Positions 974-19,442 of a stretch of 64,000 nucleotides of DNA are shown in pieces (position 1 is the stretch's first letter; the number at the start of each line of letters is the position of its first letter). The notes beneath the pieces are model-generated. The model was not told the origin of the DNA. It saw nothing but the letters and a program-made list of their open reading frames with translations, and ran no database searches. The translations under genes were made by a program, and so were the position numbers. This stretch comes from Photobacterium sp. DA100 (GTDB lineage: Bacteria > Pseudomonadota > Gammaproteobacteria > Enterobacterales > Vibrionaceae), in assembly GCF_029223585.1 (NCBI RefSeq), contig NZ_CP119423.1, positions 2,914,001 to 2,978,000 of the forward strand, read 5' to 3'.

Positions 974-1018
974 ATGCTTGAATGCTTGAATGCTTGAATG
1001 CTTGAATGCTTGAATGCT
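974..1018. repeat. Tandem 8-bp array A (ATGCTTGA x5.6)
   Basis: Five full perfect copies of ATGCTTGA plus five bases of a sixth, between cysN and the four-helix-bundle gene. The last partial unit supplies the first two bases (minus-strand sense) of that gene's TAG stop codon at 1017-1019. It is one of only two arrays in the window with an 8-bp rather than 7-bp period. Confidence 0.97.
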
Positions 1019-1401: not shown

Positions 1402-1424
1402 CTAAATTTCCTCTGGAAATTTAG
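1402..1424 (-). other. Hairpin overlapping the cysD stop codon
   Basis: Perfect 10-bp inverted repeat CTAAATTTCC / GGAAATTTAG with a 3-nt loop. It covers the cysD stop codon and lies just before the inserted four-helix-bundle gene. There is no T-tract, so termination is doubtful; partial attenuation or RNA processing is possible. Confidence 0.5.
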
Positions 1425-2335
1425 AAATAACCTTCCATCTTTTTCTTCTCCATGGAGCCGGCGGAGTCGTGGTCGATGACACGGCCTTGGCGTTCGGAGG
1501 TTTTGGTCAGAAGCATTTCTTGAATGACTTCTGGAAGGGTTGTTGCTTCAGATTCTACGGCGCCAGTAAGTGGGTAGCAGCCAAGGGTGCGGAAGCGGAC
1601 TTTCTTCATTTCTGGCTGTTCACCTTCACGAAGTGGCATACGCTCGTCGTCTACCATGATCAGTGTGCCGTCGCGCTCGACTACTGGGCGTTCATCAGCA
1701 AGGTATAGCGGTACAATTTCAATGTTTTCTAGGTAGATGTACTGCCAAATATCCAGCTCAGTCCAGTTCGAAAGCGGGAATACACGGATGCTCTCGCCTT
1801 TGTTTACTTTACCATTGAAGATGTTCCATAGCTCTGGACGCTGGCTTTTCGGGTCCCAACGGTGATTTTTATCACGGAACGAGTACACACGTTCTTTGGC
1901 ACGGGATTTTTCTTCATCACGGCGTGCGCCACCGAAAGCAGCATCGAACTGGTATTTATTCAGTGCTTGCTTTAGTGCCTGGGTCTTCATCACGTCAGTA
2001 TATTTGGCACTACCGTGGTCGAACGGGTTAATATTAGCTGCACGGCCTTCTTCATTGGTATGAACCAATAACTCCATGCCATATTTCTTTGCCATGCGAT
2101 CACGAAATTCAATCATCTCACGGAACTTCCATGTGGTATCCACATGCATCAATGGAAATGGTGGTTTGGCAGGAAAGAAAGCTTTCATGGTAAGGTGCAA
2201 CATTACCGCGGAGTCTTTACCTACTGAGTAAAGCATCACTGGATTATCAAATTCAGCGGCCACTTCACGAATAATGTGAATGGATTCTGCCTCAAGTTGT
2301 TTGAGGTGGGTCATTCTTGCTTGAGAAATTTCCAT
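1421..2335 (-). CDS. cysD: Sulfate adenylyltransferase subunit 2 (CysD)
   Basis: Catalytic small subunit of ATP sulfurylase, a cytoplasmic enzyme that adenylates sulfate in the first step of cysteine biosynthesis. The protein has 304 residues, the usual family length, and carries the PP-loop [13 protein letters not shown] (about residues 36-48). It ends in the typical [14 protein letters not shown]. The start is the ATG at 2335; an ATG seven codons further in is closer to the E. coli start and is also possible. Upstream lie two heptamer arrays, the nearer about 30 bp from the start. Downstream come the four-helix-bundle gene and cysN. Confidence 0.97.
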
Positions 2336-2365: not shown

Positions 2366-2438
2366 GCTACGAGCTACGAGCTACGAGCTACGAGCTACGA
2401 GCTACGAGCTACGAGCTACGAGCTACGAGCTACGAGCT
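2366..2438. repeat. Tandem 7-bp array B (GCTACGA x10)
   Basis: Ten perfect copies of GCTACGA plus three bases, between cysD and wzc. Read on the minus strand the unit is TCGTAGC. The sequence GCTCGTAGCT, about one and a half units of this array, also occurs singly in the flanks shared by arrays J and M. CTACGAGCTAC occurs singly just after array P. Confidence 0.98.
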
Positions 2439-2473
2439 TAATAGATTTTGATTTGAAGAAATATTAGAAGTAA

Positions 2474-2538
2474 AGCTATCAGCTATCAGCTATCAGCTAT
2501 CAGCTATCAGCTATCAGCTATCAGCTATCAGCTATCAG
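2474..2538. repeat. Tandem 7-bp array C (CAGCTAT x9)
   Basis: Nine perfect copies of AGCTATC (the CAGCTAT unit) plus two bases, lying 35 bp from array B. Together B and C fill most of the gap between wzc and cysD. The same unit in the same orientation recurs at 6083, 6176 and 11864. Confidence 0.98.
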
Positions 2539-2580: not shown

Positions 2581-4740
2581 TTATTTTTCGCTGCTGTAGC
2601 TGTAGTTGTAGTAACCATAGTTACCACCGTAATAACTACTTGCTTTGCGCACTACAGCATTAAGAATAAAGCCTTTTACTTCAATGCCGTTTTGCTCAAA
2701 GCGCTGCTTGGTCACTTCGATTTCCTTCACGGCATTTTGTCCAAAACGGCCAACTAGCAGTGTGGTACCTGCATGGGCACCGACAATAGCAGGGTCAGTC
2801 ACCGCTAGAATTGGTGGGGTATCGACAATGACGATATCGTAATTTTCTGATGCCCAGTCCATCAACTGCTTAAAGCGAGGATGCATTAGCAGTTCGGATG
2901 GATTAGGCGGTACTTCACCCCGGCCAATAAAGTCCATGCCATCAACACCCGGCTTTTTGAGTAAGTTTTCAATACTGGTTTGGCCGCTTAAGAAATCAGA
3001 CAGACCTGGTTTTGGGTTGACCGCCATCTGTTTTTCCATACGGCCTTTGCGCATATCCGCATCAATCACCAACACCTTTTGGCCTGATTTTGCAACGACT
3101 GCCGCCATGTTGGCAGAGACAAATGATTTACCGATACCCGGACTTGGGCCAGAAATCATCAGGATATTGTTCTTGGCTTCCATCATGGCAAAATGCAAGC
3201 TGGTTCGCAGACTACGCAGCGCTTCGATAGACAAGTCTGCAGGGTTTGACACCGCTAACAGAGTATCTTGCACCGATAACTGCTTTTTGCCCTTTTGTTT
3301 TTTCTCCAGCTCAATCTGCCAATCCGACATCGGCACGCTGGCATAAACCGGTAAGCCGATAGCTTCAATTTCATCAGGGTTTTCAACACCTCGATGGAAA
3401 GCTTGTTTCACCAAAGCAAATGCCACTGACAACACACCGCCCAACATAGTCGCTATAATAACGATAATGGCTTTTTTCGGTTTTACCGCTTCTTCCAAAG
3501 TCTCGGCATTATCAAGAATACGTACATTGCCGACCGCACTGGCCTTCATGACATTAAGTTCTTGTACCTTGTTGACCAACTGCAGGTAAATGGCCTGATT
3601 GACTTCGACATCTCGGCTGAGGCGAATGACTTCCTGCTGAGTTTTTGGCATTTTTGAGACCGTACGATCAATACGTGCTTTCTCAGCTTCTAATGTACGA
3701 CGCTTTTCAAGTAACGAGACATAAGCCGGGTGACTCTTGGTAAAACGCTGTGCAATATCTGATTCCTTAAAGGTCAACTCGTTAAGTTGTGCTTCTACCG
3801 TTACCATGGTATCCAGCACTGATTTCGCTTCTAAGGCTAAATCCACCGAATCGTTTTCAAGCTTATAAGCATTTAGCTTGGCTTCTGATTCATCCAGTTG
3901 CTGCTTAATATCTGGGAGGTGACCACGCAAAAACTGCAGACTTTTCTCCGCTTCTGCCGAAGTACGGTCGATATTTTGCATCAGGTAATCTTCAGTAATG
4001 CTATTCAAGATTGCCTGAATTTCCGCCGGTTCTTCGCCTTCCAAAGTGAGTTTCAGAATCCCCGTTTTCTTACCCAACTCAGAGACCGTAACTGCCTCTT
4101 GCAGTTCGCTAATAGTCACTAATCGGGCACGCTTAACGACAGTAAACTCTGTTTCTGGTTCAGCTTGAAGATCTGAGATTAAAATAGAAATTTCACCGAA
4201 TTGTGCCAATTCAGCTTTACGGCCATCTAGCAATTTCTCACCATCAAATGACAAGCTATAGCTCTCATCAGCATTTACGGTTAAAACCAGCTTCTCACCC
4301 ATCAATTCATGAGGCAGATCCAGTTTTGAAATAACCGCTAATGGTTTGTCTTCCCCTTTTAACCTTGCCAAGCCCTTACCAATAACGGGTAAATATTTAG
4401 GTTTTACATTGACAGTAAGGTTCAATTTATCAACGGTACTACCAATGACCATTCGAGATTTGATAATTTGAATCTCGGTATCAGCAGACGATTCAGAAGC
4501 AAACATTTCTGATATATCAGAAAGGCCAGGAACACCTGGACTTTTCTCTTCTACCTGCACTAACGCGTCCGCTTTGTAAATTGGTGTTGCTAGTAATGCA
4601 TAAACAACACCAATAGAAGCAAATACGAAGGTTGTTAAAATGATAATCCAGCGGTGATCTAACAACACGCCGAACAGCTTAACCAAATCGATTTCATCGG
4701 AATCGTTTTGAGAATTGTTAATAATTTGGGTTGTGGTCAT
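2581..4740 (-). CDS. wzc: Wzc-like polysaccharide co-polymerase / bacterial tyrosine autokinase
   Basis: Inner-membrane protein that controls chain length and export of capsule or exopolysaccharide and autophosphorylates on C-terminal tyrosines. It has 719 residues. Visible elements are an N-terminal Wzz domain with a membrane segment at 31-51, a periplasmic coiled-coil region at about 265-400, GNVR at 404-407, and a second membrane segment at 424-444. The BY-kinase domain follows, with Walker A GPSPGIGKS (531-539), Walker A' VLVIDADMR (556-564) and Walker B IVIVDTPP (636-643). The C-terminal cluster has seven tyrosines in residues 703-715. It lies downstream of wza, but no wzb-type phosphatase lies between the two and no glycosyltransferase genes follow. 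Confidence 0.95.
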   Translation of the reverse strand: MTTTQIINNSQNDSDEIDLVKLFGVLLDHRWIIILTTFVFASIGVVYALLATPIYKADALVQVEEKSPGVPGLSDISEMFASESSADTEIQIIKSRMVIGSTVDKLNLTVNVKPKYLPVIGKGLARLKGEDKPLAVISKLDLPHELMGEKLVLTVNADESYSLSFDGEKLLDGRKAELAQFGEISILISDLQAEPETEFTVVKRARLVTISELQEAVTVSELGKKTGILKLTLEGEEPAEIQAILNSITEDYLMQNIDRTSAEAEKSLQFLRGHLPDIKQQLDESEAKLNAYKLENDSVDLALEAKSVLDTMVTVEAQLNELTFKESDIAQRFTKSHPAYVSLLEKRRTLEAEKARIDRTVSKMPKTQQEVIRLSRDVEVNQAIYLQLVNKVQELNVMKASAVGNVRILDNAETLEEAVKPKKAIIVIIATMLGGVLSVAFALVKQAFHRGVENPDEIEAIGLPVYASVPMSDWQIELEKKQKGKKQLSVQDTLLAVSNPADLSIEALRSLRTSLHFAMMEAKNNILMISGPSPGIGKSFVSANMAAVVAKSGQKVLVIDADMRKGRMEKQMAVNPKPGLSDFLSGQTSIENLLKKPGVDGMDFIGRGEVPPNPSELLMHPRFKQLMDWASENYDIVIVDTPPILAVTDPAIVGAHAGTTLLVGRFGQNAVKEIEVTKQRFEQNGIEVKGFILNAVVRKASSYYGGNYGYYNYSYSSEK

Positions 4741-4762: not shown

Positions 4763-4791
4763 TAGATCCTAGATCCTAGATCCTAGATCCT
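4763..4791. repeat. Tandem 7-bp array D (TAGATCC x4)
   Basis: Four perfect copies of TAGATCC (equivalently AGATCCT) in the 157-bp wza-wzc gap, starting 23 bp upstream of the wzc start codon. The unit contains GATC and differs by one base from the GGATCCT unit in array O. Confidence 0.95.
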
Positions 4792-4806
4792 TTCGTTAAT
4801 CGTTTA

Positions 4807-4826
4807 TGCTTCAGTTAGCTGAAGCA
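4807..4826. other. Hairpin between arrays D and E in the wza-wzc gap
   Basis: TGCTTCAG / CTGAAGCA forms an 8-bp perfect stem with a TTAG loop. It has no T-tract. It could be an intercistronic processing or pause structure. Confidence 0.4.
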
Positions 4827-4870
4827 ATTCATCAAAATAGTTACTAGCTTCTTCCCTACTTTCTATTTCC

Positions 4871-4893
4871 TAGGAACTAGGAACTAGGAACTA
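4871..4893. repeat. Tandem 7-bp array E (TAGGAAC x3)
   Basis: Three copies of TAGGAAC plus two bases, immediately after the wza stop in transcription order. The array is preceded by TTCC, giving TTCCTAGGAAC. This resembles the CCTAGGAACTGCTCTT unit found next to array M. Confidence 0.85.
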
Positions 4894-6040: not shown

Positions 6041-6082
6041 ATTTGTTTTCGAAAATGTTGAGAGAAGGTGAAAAACAAAGAA

Positions 6083-6131
6083 TCAGCTATCAGCTATCAG
6101 CTATCAGCTATCAGCTATCAGCTATCAGCTA
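6083..6131. repeat. Tandem 7-bp array F (CAGCTAT x7)
   Basis: Seven perfect copies of TCAGCTA, 43 bp upstream of the wza start codon and therefore in its 5' untranslated region. The unit and orientation match arrays C, G and I. Confidence 0.98.
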
Positions 6132-6175
6132 AGATAATAAAGATTAAAACAAAAGGTGAAACTACCGTTGGGGGC

Positions 6176-6252
6176 TCAGCTATCAGCTATCAGCTATCAG
6201 CTATCAGCTATCAGCTATCAGCTATCAGCTATCAGCTATCAGCTATCAGCTA
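6176..6252. repeat. Tandem 7-bp array G (CAGCTAT x11)
   Basis: Eleven perfect copies of TCAGCTA, 44 bp from array F and in the same orientation. Read through on the plus strand the unit has no stop codon in any phase and would encode a repeating seven-residue SAISYQL. I regard the resulting small ORF as a consequence of the repeat, not a gene. Confidence 0.98.
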
Positions 6253-8988: not shown

Positions 8989-11208
8989 ATGTCAAACAAG
9001 GATACCAATACAACTTTGCAAACACCTTGTGGCTTCTTTAGACTCTCTGCCATCGCTTTAGCGATACTGCCTGTTTACTCAGCCAATGCCGATGACTTTA
9101 GCTACCCAGTATTAAGGCCTTCACAGTCTGACTTTGGCGGTGTTGGCTTAATGCAAATGCCTACTGCGCGCATGAACCCCACTGGCGAGTTTAACGCAGG
9201 AGCAACCTATAACAATGAATATCATCACTACAATGCTTCGCTGCAACTCTTCCCTTGGTTTGAGGCAACGATTCGCTACACCATAGTCCAAGACTTACTC
9301 TACAGTAGCAACCCTGATTTTAGTGGTGATACCAAATACACAGATAAAGGGATCGACTTTAAAATTCGCTTATGGGAAGAAAGCTACTGGATGCCCGAGG
9401 TTGCTGTTGGTATTCGCGATTTTGGTGGTACAGGGCTCTTTGATGGCGAGTTTATCGCTGCCAATAAACAAATTGGCCCGGTGGATGTCACCCTCGGTGT
9501 TGCATGGGGTTACATGGGCAACAGCGGCAATGTCACTAACCCATTATGTGACTTAGCCGACCGCTTTTGTGAACGAGAAATCCGTGGCCAATGGGGTACG
9601 GCTAACTTTGATAATTTCTTCAGTGGGCCTATGTCTATCTATGGCGGTTTGGAATATCAAAGCCCTTGGGAGCCATTACGCTTCAAGCTTGAATATGATA
9701 CTAACGACTATAAGAGTGATTTTCCGGTTACGCATGGTGGTATTGAAATGCCACAGGACAGCAAATTTAACTATGGCGCGCTATACAGGCTTGGTAACTG
9801 GGGGGATCTACGGCTAAGTTATGAACGCGGCAATACCTGGACATTTGGCTTTAATCTATATACCAACTTCAACGACTTGAAATCCGGCTGGCAAGATGAG
9901 CCTGTACCAAATTATACCCCACGTAGTCATAGTCAGCCTGATACTAACGAGCTGAGCAATGCGGAATGGCAAGTGCTGGCTGATGAACTGCATACTATTG
10001 CGGGTTATAAAAACCCAACTATTCATTACACTGACACCAGCGTTACGGTAAGTGCCGATCAAAACAAATACCGTGATCGTAATGAAGCACACGAGCGTGC
10101 AGCAACCGTATTGGCCAACCGTGGCCCAGATGTGACTGAGTATCGTTTAATTGAAACCAACAACCGTCAGGCAATCACCGAAACCCGAATTGATGCCGAT
10201 AAATTCAGCCAAGTCGCCAATATTGAATACATCGGCGCAAATGTTACAGACAGCAGTTCGGTTTCTACACCAAATGAACCTGAAGGAAGGCTAGTTGCCG
10301 AACCAAGTAAACGGTGGGATGTCAGCCTATCACCGACATTACAGCAGTCTATTGGCGGTTCTGAAAATTTCTACATGTTCAATATTGGTATCAATGCCGG
10401 AGCGAATTACTGGTTTACCGATAATATTGAACTAGGCGGTTCGGTCTACTTCAATATTTATGACAATTATGACAAGTTCTTGTACGACGTACCGCCAGAT
10501 GGCACGGACTTGAAACGTGTTCGCACCCTGGTTCGCCAATACATCAGTGATAATCCTGTGCGCCTCGACAACCTTCAGCTTACTTGGATGGATAAATTAG
10601 GTGATAACTGGTACAGCCAAGCCTACGGTGGCTACCTAGAAATGATGTTCGGCGGTGTTGGTGGTGAGGTATTGTATCGCCCACTAGGTGCAAACTGGGC
10701 TATCGGCATGGATGTCAACTATGTTGTCCAGCGCGATCCGGACTCAGCGTTTGGTTTCTTTACTGAAGAAGATCAGTTTGATCCAATCACTAATCGCCCA
10801 TATCGAGTACAAACCGGAGCGATGACAGGCCATGTTACCGGTTACTACCAACCACAGTGGGATTGGCTACCAAACACCTTGTTCAAGGTTAGCGCTGGTC
10901 AATACTTGACTGAAGATATCGGTGTTACCGTTGATTTCTCGAAGCAGTTTGATAGTGGCATTACTGCCGGTGCCTTTGCCACCTTCACAGATCTGTCCTC
11001 CGATGAATACGGTGAAGGTAGTTACACCAAAGGCTTCTACATCTCGATTCCGTTTGACGTAATGACAGTCAAACCAAGCACCAACCGAGCGACGATATCC
11101 TGGTTACCTCTTACACGCGATGGCGGCCAAATGCTGAATCGCAAATACCAGCTGTTTGGGGTAACGGATGCGAGATATCCGTGGTACAGCCGCAGAGCGG
11201 TTGAGTAG
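8989..11208 (+). CDS. yjbH: YjbH-like outer-membrane beta-barrel protein
   Basis: 739 residues from the ATG at 8989; a GTG two codons earlier overlaps the yjbG stop. The signal peptide reads FFRLSAIALAILPVYSANA. The mature part opens with the family signature YPVLRPSQSDFGGVGLMQMPTARM and continues as alternating aromatic beta-strands expected of a large outer-membrane barrel. It ends MLNRKYQLFGVTDARYPWYSRRAVE. YjbH is the last gene of E. coli yjbEFGH and is predicted to be an outer-membrane component for exopolysaccharide secretion. AAGGTG lies eight bases before the start. Confidence 0.88.
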   Translation: MSNKDTNTTLQTPCGFFRLSAIALAILPVYSANADDFSYPVLRPSQSDFGGVGLMQMPTARMNPTGEFNAGATYNNEYHHYNASLQLFPWFEATIRYTIVQDLLYSSNPDFSGDTKYTDKGIDFKIRLWEESYWMPEVAVGIRDFGGTGLFDGEFIAANKQIGPVDVTLGVAWGYMGNSGNVTNPLCDLADRFCEREIRGQWGTANFDNFFSGPMSIYGGLEYQSPWEPLRFKLEYDTNDYKSDFPVTHGGIEMPQDSKFNYGALYRLGNWGDLRLSYERGNTWTFGFNLYTNFNDLKSGWQDEPVPNYTPRSHSQPDTNELSNAEWQVLADELHTIAGYKNPTIHYTDTSVTVSADQNKYRDRNEAHERAATVLANRGPDVTEYRLIETNNRQAITETRIDADKFSQVANIEYIGANVTDSSSVSTPNEPEGRLVAEPSKRWDVSLSPTLQQSIGGSENFYMFNIGINAGANYWFTDNIELGGSVYFNIYDNYDKFLYDVPPDGTDLKRVRTLVRQYISDNPVRLDNLQLTWMDKLGDNWYSQAYGGYLEMMFGGVGGEVLYRPLGANWAIGMDVNYVVQRDPDSAFGFFTEEDQFDPITNRPYRVQTGAMTGHVTGYYQPQWDWLPNTLFKVSAGQYLTEDIGVTVDFSKQFDSGITAGAFATFTDLSSDEYGEGSYTKGFYISIPFDVMTVKPSTNRATISWLPLTRDGGQMLNRKYQLFGVTDARYPWYSRRAVE

Positions 11209-11214
11209 GAACGA

Positions 11215-11330
11215 GGAAGAGCAATCTTGGGAAGAGCTGGTTCTGGGACCTAGGAAGAGCAGGTTAGAGATCCTGGGGCCTGGGTCCTAGAACCTAGAAC
11301 CTAGAACCTTCTCTAGGTTCTAGGTTCTTC
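11215..11330. repeat. Degenerate element H with opposed heptamer repeats and a 14-bp hairpin
   Basis: Downstream of yjbH, three GGAAGAGC motifs are followed by TCCTGGG/TCCTAG-like pieces and three copies of CCTAGAA. A perfect 14-bp inverted repeat then follows: AGAACCTAGAACCT (11296-11309), loop TCTCT, AGGTTCTAGGTTCT (11315-11328). Here the heptamer runs in opposite directions on the two sides of the loop. GGAAGAGC is the reverse complement of the GCTCTTCC motif found around arrays J and M. There is no T-tract. Confidence 0.85.
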
Positions 11331-11863: not shown

Positions 11864-11943
11864 TCAGCTATCAGCTATCAGCTATCAGCTATCAGCTATC
11901 AGCTATCAGCTATCAGCTATCAGCTATCAGCTATCAGCTATCA
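11864..11943. repeat. Tandem 7-bp array I (CAGCTAT x11)
   Basis: Eleven perfect copies of TCAGCTA plus three bases, directly after the small membrane ORF and just before a bidirectional terminator. The unit and orientation match arrays C, F and G. Confidence 0.98.
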
Positions 11944-12366: not shown

Positions 12367-12442
12367 GTCCTGGGTCCTGGGTCCTGGGTCCTGGGTCCTG
12401 GGTCCTGGGTCCTGGGTCCTGGGTCCTGGGTCCTGGGTCCTG
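12367..12442. repeat. Tandem 7-bp array J (GTCCTGG x10.9)
   Basis: Ten perfect copies of GTCCTGG plus six bases, between yfcL and the 3' end of epmC. The unit (GGGTCCT in another phase) is identical to that of array L on the other side of epmC. It is followed directly by a flank that is also found after array M. Confidence 0.98.
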
Positions 12443-12527
12443 CAAAAGCGTTTGCTCGTAGCTGAACGATGTCAAGCTCCTCGCTCTTATTCTTTCGCTC
12501 TTCCCGCTTCTCCTAGGGCCTGCTCTT
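12441..12527. repeat. Conserved flank of array J (copy 1)
   Basis: Begins TGCAAAAGCGTTTGCTCGTA and continues to CCTGCTCTT. It matches 13757-13829 next to array M over about 73 bp, with a handful of substitutions and one 14-bp insertion (ATTCTTTCGCTCTT) in this copy. The two arrays have different heptamers, so the flank was not created by the array sequence. Confidence 0.93.
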
Positions 12528-12607
12528 CCTAGGACCCGCTTTTCCTAGGACCCGCTTTTCCTAGGGCCTGCTCTTCCAAGGGTCAGTTATTCCTAGGGCT
12601 CAGTCCC
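12512..12607. repeat. Degenerate 16-bp tandem repeats K (CCTAGGRCCYGCTYTT x6)
   Basis: Six consecutive 16-bp units starting at 12512, 12528, 12544, 12560, 12576 and 12592. Units 2 and 3 are identical (CCTAGGACCCGCTTTT), units 1 and 4 are identical (CCTAGGGCCTGCTCTT), and the last two are degraded. The block runs up to the epmC stop. A looser version lies at 13814-13939. Confidence 0.92.
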
Positions 12608-12612
12608 CGCTT

Positions 12613-13137
12613 TTATTCAAACATCCCCGCCACTAGCGGTTCTACCCCGTAGTGACTGCGTAATGCTTCCGATAAGGTTTTGGCGCGCGTTGGCATACCG
12701 TTTTCGAGGTAAACCAATACTTGCTCGCGTACTTTATTCGTAAACCCTACTCGGTCTGGCTCACAATTGCCGCTTAGGTTATCACAGCTCACTTGGAAGC
12801 GAAAACCACAGCTAACGGCAAGGATCCACTCTACCGCCTGCGGCTTGATTTCTACCTTTTCGAATTCAGCCTGGACTTCCGCCGTTCGACCATCGGGCTC
12901 GTACCAGTAACCGTAATCTTCCAGTAGCCTGCGCTGCGGGCCAGCAATACACCAGTGGGCAATTTCATGCAGTGCCGAGGCAAAGTAACCTCGGGCGAAT
13001 ATGACCCTATGATACGGGTACTCTTCATCTGCAGGCAGGTAAATCGGCTCATCACCACCAAGGATCAGTTCGGTGTTGAAGGAGTCTAAAAACGTTTGGT
13101 TGAAGATGTTGATGATGTCGGTGTTTTTATGGGGCAT
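12613..13137 (-). CDS. epmC: Elongation factor P hydroxylase EpmC (YfcM)
   Basis: 174 residues. EpmC hydroxylates the modified lysine of elongation factor P after the EpmA/EpmB steps, in the cytoplasm. The family sequence is clear: DEPIYLPADEEYPYHRVIFARGYFASALHEIAHWCIAG, with the putative metal-binding HEIAHW at about residues 58-63, then YWYEPDGRTAEVQ and VSCDNL. The start ATG at 13137 matches the usual N-terminus. I see no Shine-Dalgarno sequence. The upstream bases are CCGCTTTTTTAAA, and array L begins 11 bp from the start, so the array may have replaced the normal leader. Confidence 0.94.
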   Translation of the reverse strand: MPHKNTDIINIFNQTFLDSFNTELILGGDEPIYLPADEEYPYHRVIFARGYFASALHEIAHWCIAGPQRRLLEDYGYWYEPDGRTAEVQAEFEKVEIKPQAVEWILAVSCGFRFQVSCDNLSGNCEPDRVGFTNKVREQVLVYLENGMPTRAKTLSEALRSHYGVEPLVAGMFE

Positions 13138-13148
13138 TTTAAAAAAGC

Positions 13149-13225
13149 GGGTCCTGGGTCCTGGGTCCTGGGTCCTGGGTCCTGGGTCCTGGGTCCTGGG
13201 TCCTGGGTCCTGGGTCCTGGGTCCT
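13149..13225. repeat. Tandem 7-bp array L (GGGTCCT x11)
   Basis: Eleven perfect copies of GGGTCCT between the epmC start codon and the 3' end of four-helix-bundle copy 2. The heptamer has no stop codon in any phase on either strand, which produces open frames of repeated GSWVLGP-type peptide. Its unit and orientation match array J. Confidence 0.98.
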
Positions 13226-13350
13226 GTAGTATTAGTTGCTAATGCAGCGATATTATCAAGAACAACCTGCTATTTCTAATCTTGATATTTCTCAGAGATG
13301 CCAAACTCAGAGACATCATAAATTCCTCTAGATTCTTTTACCTGTCCACT

Positions 13351-13683
13351 TCAAAATTTGATTAGACTCGCTATTTTGCGGCTAACAAGGTTAGCTCTTA
13401 CTACTAATTCATCGGCTTCACCCTGACCGATATAGCCAAACTCCTTCGCCAACAGTAACTGTGTAACTAACTCACCACATGAGCCTTTAGCGTAATATAA
13501 GAAACGGACAGATTCCTTACGTGTTTCTCGTTCTTCGCCTTCTGCGATATTCGAAGGAACAGATACAGAAGACCGACTTATTTGATCTTTGAAGCCAAAA
13601 TCCTTACATGAAACAAATAATCGATGAACGATCACTGCTATCTGAAAGCTTTCCTTCCAAATATGAAGTTTTCGGTATTCCAT
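13351..13683 (-). CDS. Four-helix bundle protein, S23 / 23S rRNA intervening-sequence family (copy 2)
   Basis: 110 residues from the ATG at 13683 (MEYRKLHIW), preceded by GGAGGGGGA. The longer open frame to 13833 runs through array M and is not a credible start. The hallmark FKDQISRSSVSVPSNIAEG (about residues 31-49) and RETRKESVRFLYYAKGSCGEL are present, and the C-terminus is helical. The fold is shared with 23S rRNA intervening-sequence proteins and with the Avd accessory protein of diversity-generating retroelements; no function is proven for stand-alone copies. The gene is bracketed by heptamer arrays L and M and lies between epmC and mlaA. No reverse transcriptase is nearby. Confidence 0.92.
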   Translation of the reverse strand: MEYRKLHIWKESFQIAVIVHRLFVSCKDFGFKDQISRSSVSVPSNIAEGEERETRKESVRFLYYAKGSCGELVTQLLLAKEFGYIGQGEADELVVRANLVSRKIASLIKF

Positions 13684-13694
13684 TCCCCCTCCAT

Positions 13695-13757
13695 GGGTAC
13701 TGGGTACTGGGTACTGGGTACTGGGTACTGGGTACTGGGTACTGGGTACTGGGTACT
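13695..13757. repeat. Tandem 7-bp array M (GGGTACT x9)
   Basis: Nine perfect copies of GGGTACT, starting 11 bp upstream of the start codon of four-helix-bundle copy 2. The unit differs from arrays J and L by one base (GGGTCCT). It is followed by the flank shared with array J. Confidence 0.98.
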
Positions 13758-13829
13758 GCAAAAGCGTTTGCTCGTAGCTAAACGATGTCAAGCTCTTCGC
13801 TCTTCCCGCTTCTCCTAGGAACTGCTCTT
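13757..13829. repeat. Conserved flank of array M (copy 2)
   Basis: Matches 12441-12527 beside array J over about 73 bp, including GCTCGTAGCT, AACGATGTCAAGCTC and CCCGCTTCTCCTAGG. It lacks a 14-bp segment present in the J copy. Confidence 0.93.
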
Positions 13830-13939
13830 CCAAGCACCCCGTTCCCGATCTTCCTGAGCCTTCTTTTCCTACGACCTGCTTTCGCTCTTCCTAGGGCCGC
13901 ATTTCCTAGGCCCCAGGACCCGCTCCTCCCAGGGCCGCT
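13814..13939. repeat. Degenerate CCTAGG / GCTCTTCC region (N)
   Basis: A loose series of CCTAGG-like starts followed by GCTCTT-like ends. It includes CCTAGGAACTGCTCTT at 13814-13829 and CCTAGGGCC near 13890. It fills the space between array M's flank and the mlaA stop and resembles a decayed form of block K. Confidence 0.65.
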
Positions 13940-14929
13940 CTAATACTCATCTATCTCATCCATAAAATCATCCAGATACGCGTCGTCTTGCTGCTCTGGT
14001 AGCTCGACGTTGCCGCCACTGGCGCGGAAGTTCTTGTTCTGGATGTAGGCATCACGGGTGAAGATGTAGGCATCTGGCGAGTCCTTCAGGATAGCTTCTT
14101 GCTTGACCAGTGCCGCCCGATCTTCCATCCCTTCAAACGCCCACTTACCCAGGCTCTGCCAGAAGTTCAACGCACTTAATGGCAAGTACAATCCGTCAAC
14201 AAAATCACCGGCGCCTTCGCGCAATGTCAGCGGGCCGTAAACCGGGAACATGAAGTAAGGGCCGTTGGCGACGCCGTATTTACCCAGGGTGTCACCGAAC
14301 TGTTTGTCGACCGGCTTGCGAATATCCGCCGCGGAGGCGATGTCGATCAAGCCGAGCAAACCAAAGGTGGAGTTGATCCAAAAACGGTTGAAATGGCGCA
14401 CAGCCTCTTCGCCGTTGAGCATCAGGGCACTGTTGACCATGCTGGCTGGCTCATCGAGGTTGGCCAGAAAATTCCTGATGCCGGTCCGGATGAATGAAGG
14501 CGTGTAGTCGACGTACGCCAGTGAGATCGGCCTGGCCAAGTAAGGGTCCAAGTAGTCGTAGTTCAAGTTCCACATAGCGCGGTTGAAGCCTTCGAACGGA
14601 TCATACACACCCGGTACCGAATACTCCCCACCACCCTGCTCGACTTCTTCCAGCACTGCCGCGAGATCTTCGTCATACTCGTCATCGTAATCGCCAAACT
14701 CATCAATGCCATCGGCTGGCGCAGTGACGCTCTCTGTAGCTACAGCTCCGGGATCTACAACATCGGTATCAACGGCATCAAGGTCGACAGCACCCTGCTC
14801 CGCAAGGGAACCTGGCTGCTCGATGTTAGTGGTATCCGGTAATGTTTGCTCATCAGGCGATTGCGCACACGCTGTCAGTGTCAATGAAATAGCGATAGCA
14901 AGTAGGTGTTTTTTCAATGTGGTATCCAT
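13940..14929 (-). CDS. mlaA: Phospholipid-binding lipoprotein MlaA (VacJ)
   Basis: Outer-membrane lipoprotein that removes mislocalised phospholipids from the outer leaflet and passes them to MlaC for return to the inner membrane. It has 329 residues, longer than the roughly 250 of E. coli MlaA. The lipoprotein signal ends in LTLTAC (lipidated cysteine at 21). It is followed by about 90 residues of acidic, Asp/Glu-rich linker, which accounts for the extra length. The core starts at YDPFEGFNRAMWNLNYDYLDPYLARP and includes FRTGIRNFLANLDEPASMVNSAL-like and GNGPYFMFPVYGP-like family segments. The start is the ATG at 14929. It is monocistronic. Confidence 0.95.
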   Translation of the reverse strand: MDTTLKKHLLAIAISLTLTACAQSPDEQTLPDTTNIEQPGSLAEQGAVDLDAVDTDVVDPGAVATESVTAPADGIDEFGDYDDEYDEDLAAVLEEVEQGGGEYSVPGVYDPFEGFNRAMWNLNYDYLDPYLARPISLAYVDYTPSFIRTGIRNFLANLDEPASMVNSALMLNGEEAVRHFNRFWINSTFGLLGLIDIASAADIRKPVDKQFGDTLGKYGVANGPYFMFPVYGPLTLREGAGDFVDGLYLPLSALNFWQSLGKWAFEGMEDRAALVKQEAILKDSPDAYIFTRDAYIQNKNFRASGGNVELPEQQDDAYLDDFMDEIDEY

Positions 14930-17457: not shown

Positions 17458-19442
17458 CAGTTTGCCTTCGCCTCCTGCTTCGCAACCACAGACTCACCTT
17501 TCTCTTCCTTGCGGCGGAAACGGTAGCGCTTGTCACTAATGGCAAATGCACCGCCCAGAGCCATCAAGGCCGAGCCGAACCAAATCCAGTTTACAAACGG
17601 CTTAAAGTAGATACGTACCGCCCAAGCACCGTCGGTCAGCTTCTCACCCATTGCCACGTATAGGTCACGGGTTACGCCGCTGTCGATGGCCGCTTCGGTC
17701 ATCATAGAGCCCGCCACCGAGTAGAAACGCTTCTCGGCATGCAGGGTCGTTACACGTCTACCGTCGCGGGTAATATTGAAGTCCGCAATGTAACCGTCGT
17801 AGTTAGGGCCGTCGGCATCACGCAAACCGGCAAAGTGGAAATCGTAGCCTTGAACTTGCACCGTCTCACCCGGTGCCATGCGCACGTCACGCTCGATATC
17901 GTAGTTCGATACCAGAGTAATACCGATAACGGAAACAGCCAGACCAATATGGCCCAGTACCATCGCCCAGTGACTACGGCCCAGCTTGGTAAGTCCTTTC
18001 CACAGGGTATGGCGGTGTGTCGCACGCTCATACAACTCAAAACCGTGCATCACGATGATCCACACGGCCATCGCCATACCAAGTACCGCCAATGGCTCAA
18101 GCACTTCGGTGAACAGCCATACCGACAGGAATGCAAACGGGATAGTGACCAGGGCAGAGATGATCATCTGCTTGCTGATGTTCGAGACCTTGTCGCGCTT
18201 CCAGCGAACCAGTGGGCCGACACCCAGAATGAAGGCAAACGGGATCATCAGCCAGGTGAACAGGGTATTAAAGAACGGCACCCCGATAGACACCGAGCCC
18301 AAACCGATTTGCTTGTGGACCAGTGGCAGCAAAGTACCAATAAGAACAACAAGCAGTGCGGCAACCAACAGCAGGTTGTTCGCCAGTAGCAGGTTCTCGC
18401 GCGAGAACAAGGCGTAGTTACCACGGGAGCGGATCTGGGCGCCGCGCAGTGCGTAAAGCAACAATGAACCGCCGATCACCACCACCAGGAAGCCAAGGAT
18501 GAACATGCCGCGAGCCGGATCGGATGCAAACGCGTGCACCGAGACCAAGACGCCGGAACGGACCAGGAAGGTGCCCAGCAGGCTCAATGAGAAGGCAGAA
18601 ATCGCCAGCAGCACCGTCCATGCTTTGAACGTACCGCGTTTTTCAGTCACAGCCAGCGAGTGCATCAAGGCCGTACCGGCTAGCCATGGCATAAAGGAGG
18701 CGTTTTCTACTGGATCCCAGAACCACCAGCCACCCCAGCCAAGCTCATAGTAAGCCCACCAAGAGCCCAGTGCGATACCCAATGTTAGGAATGCCCATGC
18801 CGCAATCGTCCAAGGACGAGACCAGCGTGCCCAAGCCGTATCCAAACGACCTGTCATTAGCGAGGCAATCGCAAAAGCAAAAGCGACCGAGAAGCCCACA
18901 TAACCCATGTAGAGCAGCGGCGGGTGAATGATCAGCCCCGGATCCTGCAACAGCGGGTTGAGGTCACGGCCATCGACCGGGAAGAACGGCAGGGTACGCA
19001 AGAATGGGTTGGAGGTCGCAATGATGAACAGCAAGAAGCCGATCGCAATCATCCCCATGACAGACAGTACGCGCGCCAGTGATTCCAGCGGCATGCCACG
19101 GCTAAACACCGCAACAGCAACGGCCCAGCCAGCTTGGATCAGCGCCCAAAGCAGCAACGAGCCTTCGTGGCCGCCCCATACTGCCGACAAGCGGTAGTAC
19201 CAAGGCAGCAAGGTGTTAGAGTTACTGGCAACATACGCTACCGTGAAATCATTGCTGTAAAAAGCCCAGCTTAGAACGATAAACGACACTAAAGTCATGC
19301 CGAAAATACCATACGTCAGCGGACGGGCCATTCGCATTAGTGCCTGATTCCCAACGGATGCGCCGTAGAGGGGATAGATGCTGACCAGGATGGATAATCC
19401 CAGTGCAACAATCAGGCTAAAGTTGCCTATTTCTGCAATCAT
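17457..19442 (-). CDS. ccmF: Haem lyase subunit CcmF
   Basis: Large polytopic inner-membrane subunit that takes haem from holo-CcmE and ligates it to apocytochrome c. It has 661 residues and many membrane segments. The tryptophan-rich motif GWGGWWFWDPVENASFMPW (about residues 234-252) and the family sequence NPLLQDPGLIIHPPLLYMGYVGFSVAFAFA are present. The start ATG at 19442 overlaps the ccmE stop (TAATG). Confidence 0.97.
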   Translation of the reverse strand: MIAEIGNFSLIVALGLSILVSIYPLYGASVGNQALMRMARPLTYGIFGMTLVSFIVLSWAFYSNDFTVAYVASNSNTLLPWYYRLSAVWGGHEGSLLLWALIQAGWAVAVAVFSRGMPLESLARVLSVMGMIAIGFLLFIIATSNPFLRTLPFFPVDGRDLNPLLQDPGLIIHPPLLYMGYVGFSVAFAFAIASLMTGRLDTAWARWSRPWTIAAWAFLTLGIALGSWWAYYELGWGGWWFWDPVENASFMPWLAGTALMHSLAVTEKRGTFKAWTVLLAISAFSLSLLGTFLVRSGVLVSVHAFASDPARGMFILGFLVVVIGGSLLLYALRGAQIRSRGNYALFSRENLLLANNLLLVAALLVVLIGTLLPLVHKQIGLGSVSIGVPFFNTLFTWLMIPFAFILGVGPLVRWKRDKVSNISKQMIISALVTIPFAFLSVWLFTEVLEPLAVLGMAMAVWIIVMHGFELYERATHRHTLWKGLTKLGRSHWAMVLGHIGLAVSVIGITLVSNYDIERDVRMAPGETVQVQGYDFHFAGLRDADGPNYDGYIADFNITRDGRRVTTLHAEKRFYSVAGSMMTEAAIDSGVTRDLYVAMGEKLTDGAWAVRIYFKPFVNWIWFGSALMALGGAFAISDKRYRFRRKEEKGESVVAKQEAKAN

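Follow-up and report, generated by a model that had tools for sequence, protein, structure and literature searches.

The gap between mlaA and epmC in the genome of Photobacterium sp. DA100 contains a small gene of the S23 (23S_rRNA_IVP) family that is bracketed by two perfect heptamer arrays. This arrangement raises the question of whether gene and repeats belong together and, if they do, what kind of unit they form. To our knowledge S23 proteins have no known function, and we know of no enzyme activity for them. We analyzed the 64,000-nucleotide stretch around this gene (the window; positions 2,914,001 to 2,978,000 of contig NZ_CP119423.1), the remainder of the genome and S23 loci from other bacteria. 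Our data suggest that the S23 gene is probably the core of an operon-embedded cassette with inverted repeat arms, of which the rRNA intervening sequence (IVS) is one case. The features of the mlaA-epmC region are as follows.

12367..12442: array K, GGTCCTG x 10.9, with the same unit as array L
12443..12600: second copy of the flank found beyond array M, with degenerate C-rich repeats of period about 16
12613..13137, minus strand: epmC (PF04315)
13149..13226: array L, GGGTCCT x 11.1, perfect, reading CAGGACC on the gene strand; C-rich downstream arm
13351..13683, minus strand: S23 / 23S_rRNA_IVP gene, 110 aa, in the mlaA-epmC gap (PF05635, E 3.4e-30, 104.8 bits against a cut-off of 33.8)
13694..13758: array M, GGGTACT x 9.3, perfect; upstream of the gene yet C-rich on the gene strand
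13759..13939: flank in common with block K, then degenerate repeats, G-rich on the S23 strand
13940..14929, minus strand: mlaA (PF04333)

The S23 gene also scored 102.8 bits against TIGR02436 (cut-off 24), and its ATG is separated from array M by 10 nt. The sequence and the array detection placed the gene and arrays L and M where the original prediction had put them. The conserved flank that it had described beyond M is likewise real, recurring at block K (12367-12600) beside array K and, more weakly or in part, at four other sites in the genome. At three of these four sites (loci L030-L032) the flank comes straight after a heptamer array and before C-rich degenerate repeats; the arrays are GGTCCTG x 14, GGTCCTG x 11 and, with 3.9 copies, one of GGGCCCT type. 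By eye, these layouts begin just past terminator-like hairpins. The M-flank block, block K and L030-L032 look like S23-less derivatives. The period-16 degenerate repeats adjoining array K, CCCGCTCTTCCTAGGG, occupy 12503-12599, and similar words occur again at 13796-13939.

Arrays L and M are in direct, not inverted, orientation, which makes the copy in the mlaA-epmC gap atypical. Array M does not qualify as a typical arm because it is C-rich on the gene strand although it lies upstream, and it may be part of a separate, S23-less unit. On the S23 strand, GGGTCCTGGGGCCTAGGAA at 13903-13921 contains the reverse complement of the array L unit and is likely to be a degraded upstream arm; arm L has only this degenerate upstream counterpart as terminal complementarity. 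In the mlaA-epmC cassette the C-rich downstream arm, L, would thus be in good condition and the G-rich upstream arm degraded, with M as an extra block between them.

The two contigs of the genome (3.87 and 2.14 Mb, 6.01 Mb in all) contain two TIGR02436 matches, both inside the window. The second S23 gene and the other window arrays are as follows.

974..1018: octamer array ATGCTTGA, 5.6 copies, abutting the second S23 gene at its stop codon
1017..1361, minus strand: second S23 gene, 114 aa, in the cysD-cysN gap (PF05635, E 2.7e-31)
1421..2335, minus strand: cysD, for which the genome has one further good match (the names cysD and cysN are from NCBIfam)
2366..2538: two heptamer arrays, GCTACGA x 10.4 and AGCTATC x 9.3
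4763..4893: two heptamer arrays, both short: TAGATCC x 4.1 and CTAGGAA x 3.4
6082..6252: heptamer unit TCAGCTA in two direct arrays, x 7.1 and x 11
11286..11309: CCTAGAA x 3.4, then inverted TTCTAGG words
11864..11943: heptamer array TCAGCTA x 11.4

The second genomic cysD match, at C1:3532912, is 80% identical to cysD of the window; the window cysDN looks like an accessory copy.

Perfect arrays numbered 12 in the first 14 kb of the window, around both S23 genes, and 2 in the other 50 kb. A genome sample of 20 stretches of 20 kb (400 kb) yielded 4 perfect arrays, of which one was a heptamer, and stretches of relatives yielded 1 in 357 kb. A period-7 signal was found in 1 of 190 intergenic gaps of 60-600 bp in the genome sample and in 0 of 160 in the relatives' sample. 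The signal is thus uncommon in gaps sampled elsewhere in this genome, and the observation behind the original prediction withstands the refuting condition that had been set for it. We dropped chance, or a plain genome-wide abundance of arrays, as an explanation, since the genome sample and the gap controls speak against it. Two loci of the genome sample had arrays of their own: L174 has two octamer arrays of one unit, ACAGCACC, at 4636-4692 (7 copies) and 19067-19243 (22 copies), and L176 has a pentamer array, GCCAA x 29.6, at 14456-14603.

S23 genes were present in 21 relatives out of 119; in a class sample they occurred in 72 of 369 genomes and in a phylum sample in 60 of 398. The fetched loci were mostly the best-scoring S23 matches of each search and not a random draw; 80 further named loci were the best 80 of 564 confirmed in a scan of species genomes, and further class- and phylum-sample matches added 59 S23 places. 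Counted by distance from the S23 match, perfect arrays (period 5 to 12, length at least 24 nt, at least three copies) numbered 62 in 34.9 kb within 100 bp, 8 in 34.5 kb at 100-200 bp, 0 in 100.8 kb at 200-500 bp, 25 in 320 kb at 500-1500 bp and 33 in 945 kb at 1.5-10 kb, a density within 100 bp that is 20 to 50 times that at 0.5-10 kb (the table is not de-duplicated, L005 and L093 being the same gene, and it omits L028-L033, which were fetched for the flank, and L021, which has no profile match). The 70 perfect arrays within 200 bp, also counted without de-duplication, had period 7 in 65 cases, 8 in 4 and 9 in 1.

A mismatch-tolerant detector applied to 340 flanks of 170 distinct genes found period 7 in 157, period 8 in 18, period 9 in 5 and any other period from 4 to 13 in at most 2; the signals at lags 14 and 15 (122 and 13) are harmonics. 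In control windows 600-800 bp away from S23, period 7 was detected in 8 of 325. Among the named loci (best 80 of 564), 19 of 89 S23 genes had a perfect array within 200 bp, compared with 36 of 830 ORFs not adjoining S23 (Fisher p 1.4e-7). Non-redundant counts were made after exact duplicates had been dropped and proteins clustered at 70% identity; genes whose flank on either side was shorter than 150 nt were excluded, and 196 of the 201 clusters were counted. Periodicity was seen on at least one flank in 118 of these 196 genes and on both flanks in 52, and 78 had none at threshold. The enrichment near S23 genes that the original prediction had anticipated across genomes is thus present, and in distant phyla.

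In the named loci (best 80 of 564, chosen for S23), period 7 was found in 13 of 31 gaps adjoining S23 and also in 37 of 365 gaps away from it, which indicates that the signal is not confined to cassettes and that arrays cluster in a wider neighborhood. Within these loci (again the best 80 of 564), pairs of arrays without S23 were inverted with at most one mismatch in 1 of 13 cases. A Pseudomaricurvus contig (L133) carries very long perfect arrays less than 5 kb from S23, TAGAACC x 97 (1473-2151) and TAGTCCC x 83 (9128-9711).

By groups assigned from record titles, period 7 was found in 12 of 23 genes of Gammaproteobacteria, 3 of 4 of other Proteobacteria, 9 of 13 of Verrucomicrobiota and Kiritimatiellota, 5 of 7 of Desulfobacterota, 3 of 3 of Planctomycetota, 3 of 3 of Clostridia, 2 of 3 of Acidobacteriota, 1 of 2 of Nitrospirota, 1 of 1 of Campylobacterota, 0 of 1 of Chloroflexi, 2 of 3 of Caldiserica and Caldithrix, 12 of 14 on cyanobacterial plasmids and 3 of 3 at loci without a group label. 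Bacteroidota and Ignavibacteriota had period 7 in 4 of 20 and inverted arms in 13 of 20. Their best period was 8 in 8, 7 in 7 and 9 in 2 of 25 genes, and in the other clusters it was 7 in 132 of 186, 8 in 6, 9 in 1 and 6 in 1. Plasmid matches for S23 came from 15 cyanobacterial and 4 Riemerella records; a tblastn search of phage records gave zero S23 matches, and we set a phage link aside.

The arms on the two sides of the gene are related to one another. Among 74 non-redundant genes with period-7 segments on both sides, the upstream unit was the reverse complement of the downstream unit in 28 and differed from it by one mismatch in 23. These 51 compare with a mean of 2.6 and a maximum of 9 in 2000 trials of a re-paired null, and a direct-orientation unit match was found in 4 of 74. 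Local alignment of both flanks exceeded the 99% level of the null in inverted orientation in 112 of 196 genes and in direct orientation in 21. The arms also have polarity: G exceeded C in 77 of 99 upstream units (the reverse in 8), and C exceeded G in 94 of 116 downstream units (the reverse in 12). A rotation-free motif search recovered a weak core, AG[T/G], beyond that of letter-shuffled units, with a log-likelihood of 261.5 upstream, against at most 238.4 for shuffled units, and of 302.8 downstream, against at most 275.2. The original prediction had described a cassette bracketed by two different arrays; that S23 genes and short tandem arrays go together is upheld by these data, whereas a difference between the two arrays is not the rule, the arms mostly being one unit inverted.

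One of 235 S23 genes is located within 23S rRNA, at a point bounded by E. coli positions 1159 and 1185. Its upstream flank reads TCAGGAA TCAGAGT TCAGGAA TTAGGTA TCAGAA (by eye; the lag-7 score of 5 is below threshold) and its downstream flank CTGATCC CTGATCC CTGACCT CTGATTC CTGAG (detector score 12). This copy is a classical IVS with degenerate inverted heptamer arms, of the same kind as the operon cassettes. The two window copies are located in the mlaA-epmC and cysD-cysN gaps, outside rRNA genes, which sets them apart from an IVS by location. According to the part of the account considered here, the S23 ORF of the Coxiella IVS is immediately preceded by tandem heptamers, the ends are complementary and RNase III processes the element (PMC4990558). 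The cassettes resemble the IVS in that account in having a sense S23 ORF, heptamers adjoining the ORF and a sporadic distribution and, as far as the inverted flanks of 112 of 196 genes indicate, in terminal complementary sequences, but differ from it in being located in protein-coding operons; two-sided heptamer arms, unit diversity and many host operons are not described in that part of the account (PMC4990558). A solved S23 relative is a pentamer, according to the same part (PMC4990558). Relatives of S23 in the PDB are 2GSC and 2RLD.

The neighbors of 187 non-redundant S23 genes were examined for orientation. The S23 gene lay between same-strand genes in 120 cases and between opposite-strand genes in 20, and 47 were mixed; neighbors were taken as mechanical ORFs of at least 80 aa, some of which are antisense shadows in GC-rich loci (for example, upstream of L096), so these counts are approximate. 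NCBIfam naming, which covered 19 neighbor genes and gave no clear name for the neighbors at L017, identified hosts including cysD, cysN, nuoC, nuoD, metK, ahcY, metF, rpsI, gmd, hisF, hisIE and groEL, as well as a nucleotide-sugar dehydrogenase and, one after the other, a Wza-type export protein and a Wzb-like phosphatase (the latter below its curated cut-off).

Filled and empty versions of the same site were found within the genus. Of 30 loci, 23 have cysD and cysN 16-17 bp apart and one has them 98 bp apart, in each case with no S23 gene between; in the window the gap, with S23 inside, is 483 bp. For the remaining 5 of the 30, the piece retrieved gave no cysN match; one of them, L341, has an S23 gene following cysD. 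In three relatives lacking S23 there, epmC and mlaA are about 7, 96 and 131 bp apart, and the gap measures 708, 806 and 1088 bp in the three genomes that have S23, the window's included; in the other two filled gaps S23 has the opposite orientation to that in the window. In 24 of the 30 loci searched, no mlaA turned up next to epmC, and these loci are therefore uninformative. As to target-site duplication and defined ends, the hallmarks of a classical transposon or MITE, the filled and empty sites were too diverged for junctions to be defined by eye.

CysD and CysN were both encoded within 1.5 kb of S23 in 14 of 250 genes, and one of them in 2. For 8 of these 16 S23 genes the nearest relative was at another site, and these sites include some with hisF, groEL, gmd or a nucleotide-sugar dehydrogenase upstream. 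Within the limits of the sampling and at protein identities of 59-69%, this favors the view that S23 arrived at cysD/cysN repeatedly. In the 26 genomes with several fetched copies, the nearest relative was in the same genome for 5 of 62 genes, at least two of these five being one gene in overlapping pieces, and the median best identity was 44%. Recent transposition within genomes was not found among the fetched copies, and we dropped it.

Several explanations have to be weighed against these observations. S23 might be a normal host gene encoding an RNA-binding regulator, with the arms as sites on its own mRNA for autoregulation and nothing mobile. The strong purifying selection on the protein (dN/dS median 0.08, maximum 0.166, in 29 usable of 66 pairs), the mostly sense orientation in operons and the lack of visible recent copying within genomes are what such a gene would lead one to expect. 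However, one family interrupts several unrelated conserved operons and 23S rRNA, and its sites are empty in relatives, and we regard this explanation as rather doubtful. The arms might, on the other hand, be passive, a hairpin in a tolerated gap growing by replication slippage while template switching keeps its arms alike, with S23 unrelated to the repeats. Unit identity falls from 87% of 15 pairs at above 85% protein identity to 10% of 199 at 60-70% and 0.1% of 8013 below 40%, and this fall, together with the inverted match, indicates rapid turnover of units with both arms of one cassette still matched, as a passive process would allow. Mismatches between arms showed no excess of the G-U type (187 G-U type against 233 A-C type), as a DNA-level process predicts; selection on an RNA stem is accordingly not visible, and the hairpin step of the model below stays putative. 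Predicted arm-to-arm pairing of at least 15 pairs was obtained in 46 of 60 cases, compared with 26 of 60 with swapped flanks. Given this moderate gain and the lack of G-U bias, homogenizing of the arms at the DNA level is as possible as selection on RNA. Slippage alone nevertheless leaves unexplained a period of 7 with almost no 5, 6, 9 or 10, the G-rich/C-rich polarity and the rarity of such arrays in the genome sample, and we consider a purely passive origin improbable.

The original prediction had gone further, proposing that S23 acts in the manner of Avd and that heptamer arrays are created, copied or maintained with its help and that of a polymerase supplied in trans. The fold that S23 and Avd have in common, as that prediction stated, and the decay of array density over several kilobases from S23 would be in keeping with a reverse transcriptase (RT) in this role. 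However, an RT domain was found in 9 of 12 S23 genomes and in 31 of 40 without S23 in the genus, and two S23 genomes rated complete (G007 and G009) had no RVT_1 match. The genome of the window has 18 RVT_1 matches; the closest of them to an S23 gene lies about 110 kb away from the second copy and 122 kb away from the first, so that a reverse transcriptase beside an Avd-like gene, the arrangement of a diversity-generating retroelement, was not found there. Since the presence of an RT does not follow S23 in the genus, RT in trans was dropped, and we now hold a role of this kind to be very unlikely. The genome of the window and two relatives (G004 and G025) have many RT matches in 442-aa frames with near-equal scores, which are putative group II introns.

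The reading that we favor, and consider the probable one, is the operon-embedded S23 cassette; it builds on the observed arms with their period and inverted match, the prevailing sense orientation, the filled and empty sites, the purifying selection and the anatomy of the 23S rRNA IVS. Such a cassette would consist of the S23 ORF and, on either side of it, inverted arms of 7-nt tandem repeats (often 8-nt in Bacteroidota), rich in G upstream and in C downstream, and would be lodged mostly sense in gaps between operon genes. It would presumably be co-transcribed with the host operon. By analogy with the Coxiella IVS, the arms may form a hairpin with S23 in the loop that is cut by RNase III, and we propose that this cutting would let the neighboring cistrons tolerate the cassette. 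An S23 pentamer may recognize the repeated unit, with its weak core, in its own arms. Over evolutionary time, S23 lineages would pass from operon to operon and from species to species, and S23-less arrays such as those of the window would be derivatives. The sense orientation would weaken this model to the extent that a native operon gene is also expected to be mostly sense. Counting against it as well are the missing G-U excess, the 78 of 196 genes with no periodicity at threshold, the direct arrays of the window copy, the lack of visible recent copying within genomes, the rarely inverted S23-less pairs and the period-7 signal in 37 of 365 other gaps of the named loci. S23 proteins are conserved in many phyla, and the recurrent inverted heptamer arms provide a concrete hypothesis for what they bind. 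This association ties together three separate observations, rRNA IVSs, G-rich heptamer repeats and S23 genes in cas loci, and would account for the interruption of conserved operons, cysDN and nuoCD among them, by one and the same small gene in bacteria that are far apart.

Other short repeats offer points of comparison. REP/REPIN elements with RAYT are short dispersed repeats that flank a protein gene and have non-autonomous derivatives, as S23 cassettes appear to; unlike S23 cassettes, they have palindromic repeats and a Y1 transposase. G-rich heptamers in Xanthomonas and Nostoc lie mostly between co-directional ORFs and are mostly transcribed, according to the available part of the report (Rehm et al. 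2015, PMC4692102), with the G-rich strand sense just past the stop codon and antisense just before the start codon; two Xanthomonas genomes have 70 and 75 inverted heptamer pairs (PMC4692102). The Xanthomonas heptamers share the geometry of the S23 arms, but the Xanthomonas and Nostoc repeats differ in using one or two fixed units and in being tied to G-quadruplexes, and the word S23 does not occur in the available text (PMC4692102). Arrays L and M, with GGGTCCT x 11 and GGGTACT x 9, contain the at least four GGG heptamers by which G4 heptamers are defined, and may putatively fold into quadruplexes. Their units differ from GGGAATC of Xanthomonas and GGGGA(C/T)T of Nostoc, and GGGAATC x 3 was found in 0 of 339 class-sample genomes.

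It is possible, and we put it forward tentatively, that S23 cassettes are a bacterium-wide class of mobile elements whose tandem 7-nt ends are read by the S23 pentamer, one unit per subunit, and that rRNA IVSs, operon cassettes and the heptamers of Xanthomonas, Nostoc and the present genome are autonomous and non-autonomous members of one family. The parts are known singly; among the matches listed from the open-licence literature, no title or abstract linked S23 with inverted heptamer arms in operons, and we did not meet the general association, the inverted arms or the operon cassettes in that literature.

Genes of the 23S_rRNA_IVP family are known in cas loci and have been discussed as having a CRISPR-Cas-associated function, in the available part of that report (PMC3936711). 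Like the cassettes, these genes lie inside operons; unlike them, they are presented there with no mention of repeats in the part available (PMC3936711). In the present set, cas operons are one of many S23 hosts. We observed S23 inside cas operons of cyanobacterial plasmids (L333, L335 and L337), in the orders cas6-S23-cas4 and cas10-S23-cmr3, and at L333 the arms were direct, with units AAAAGCT and AAAAGCC.
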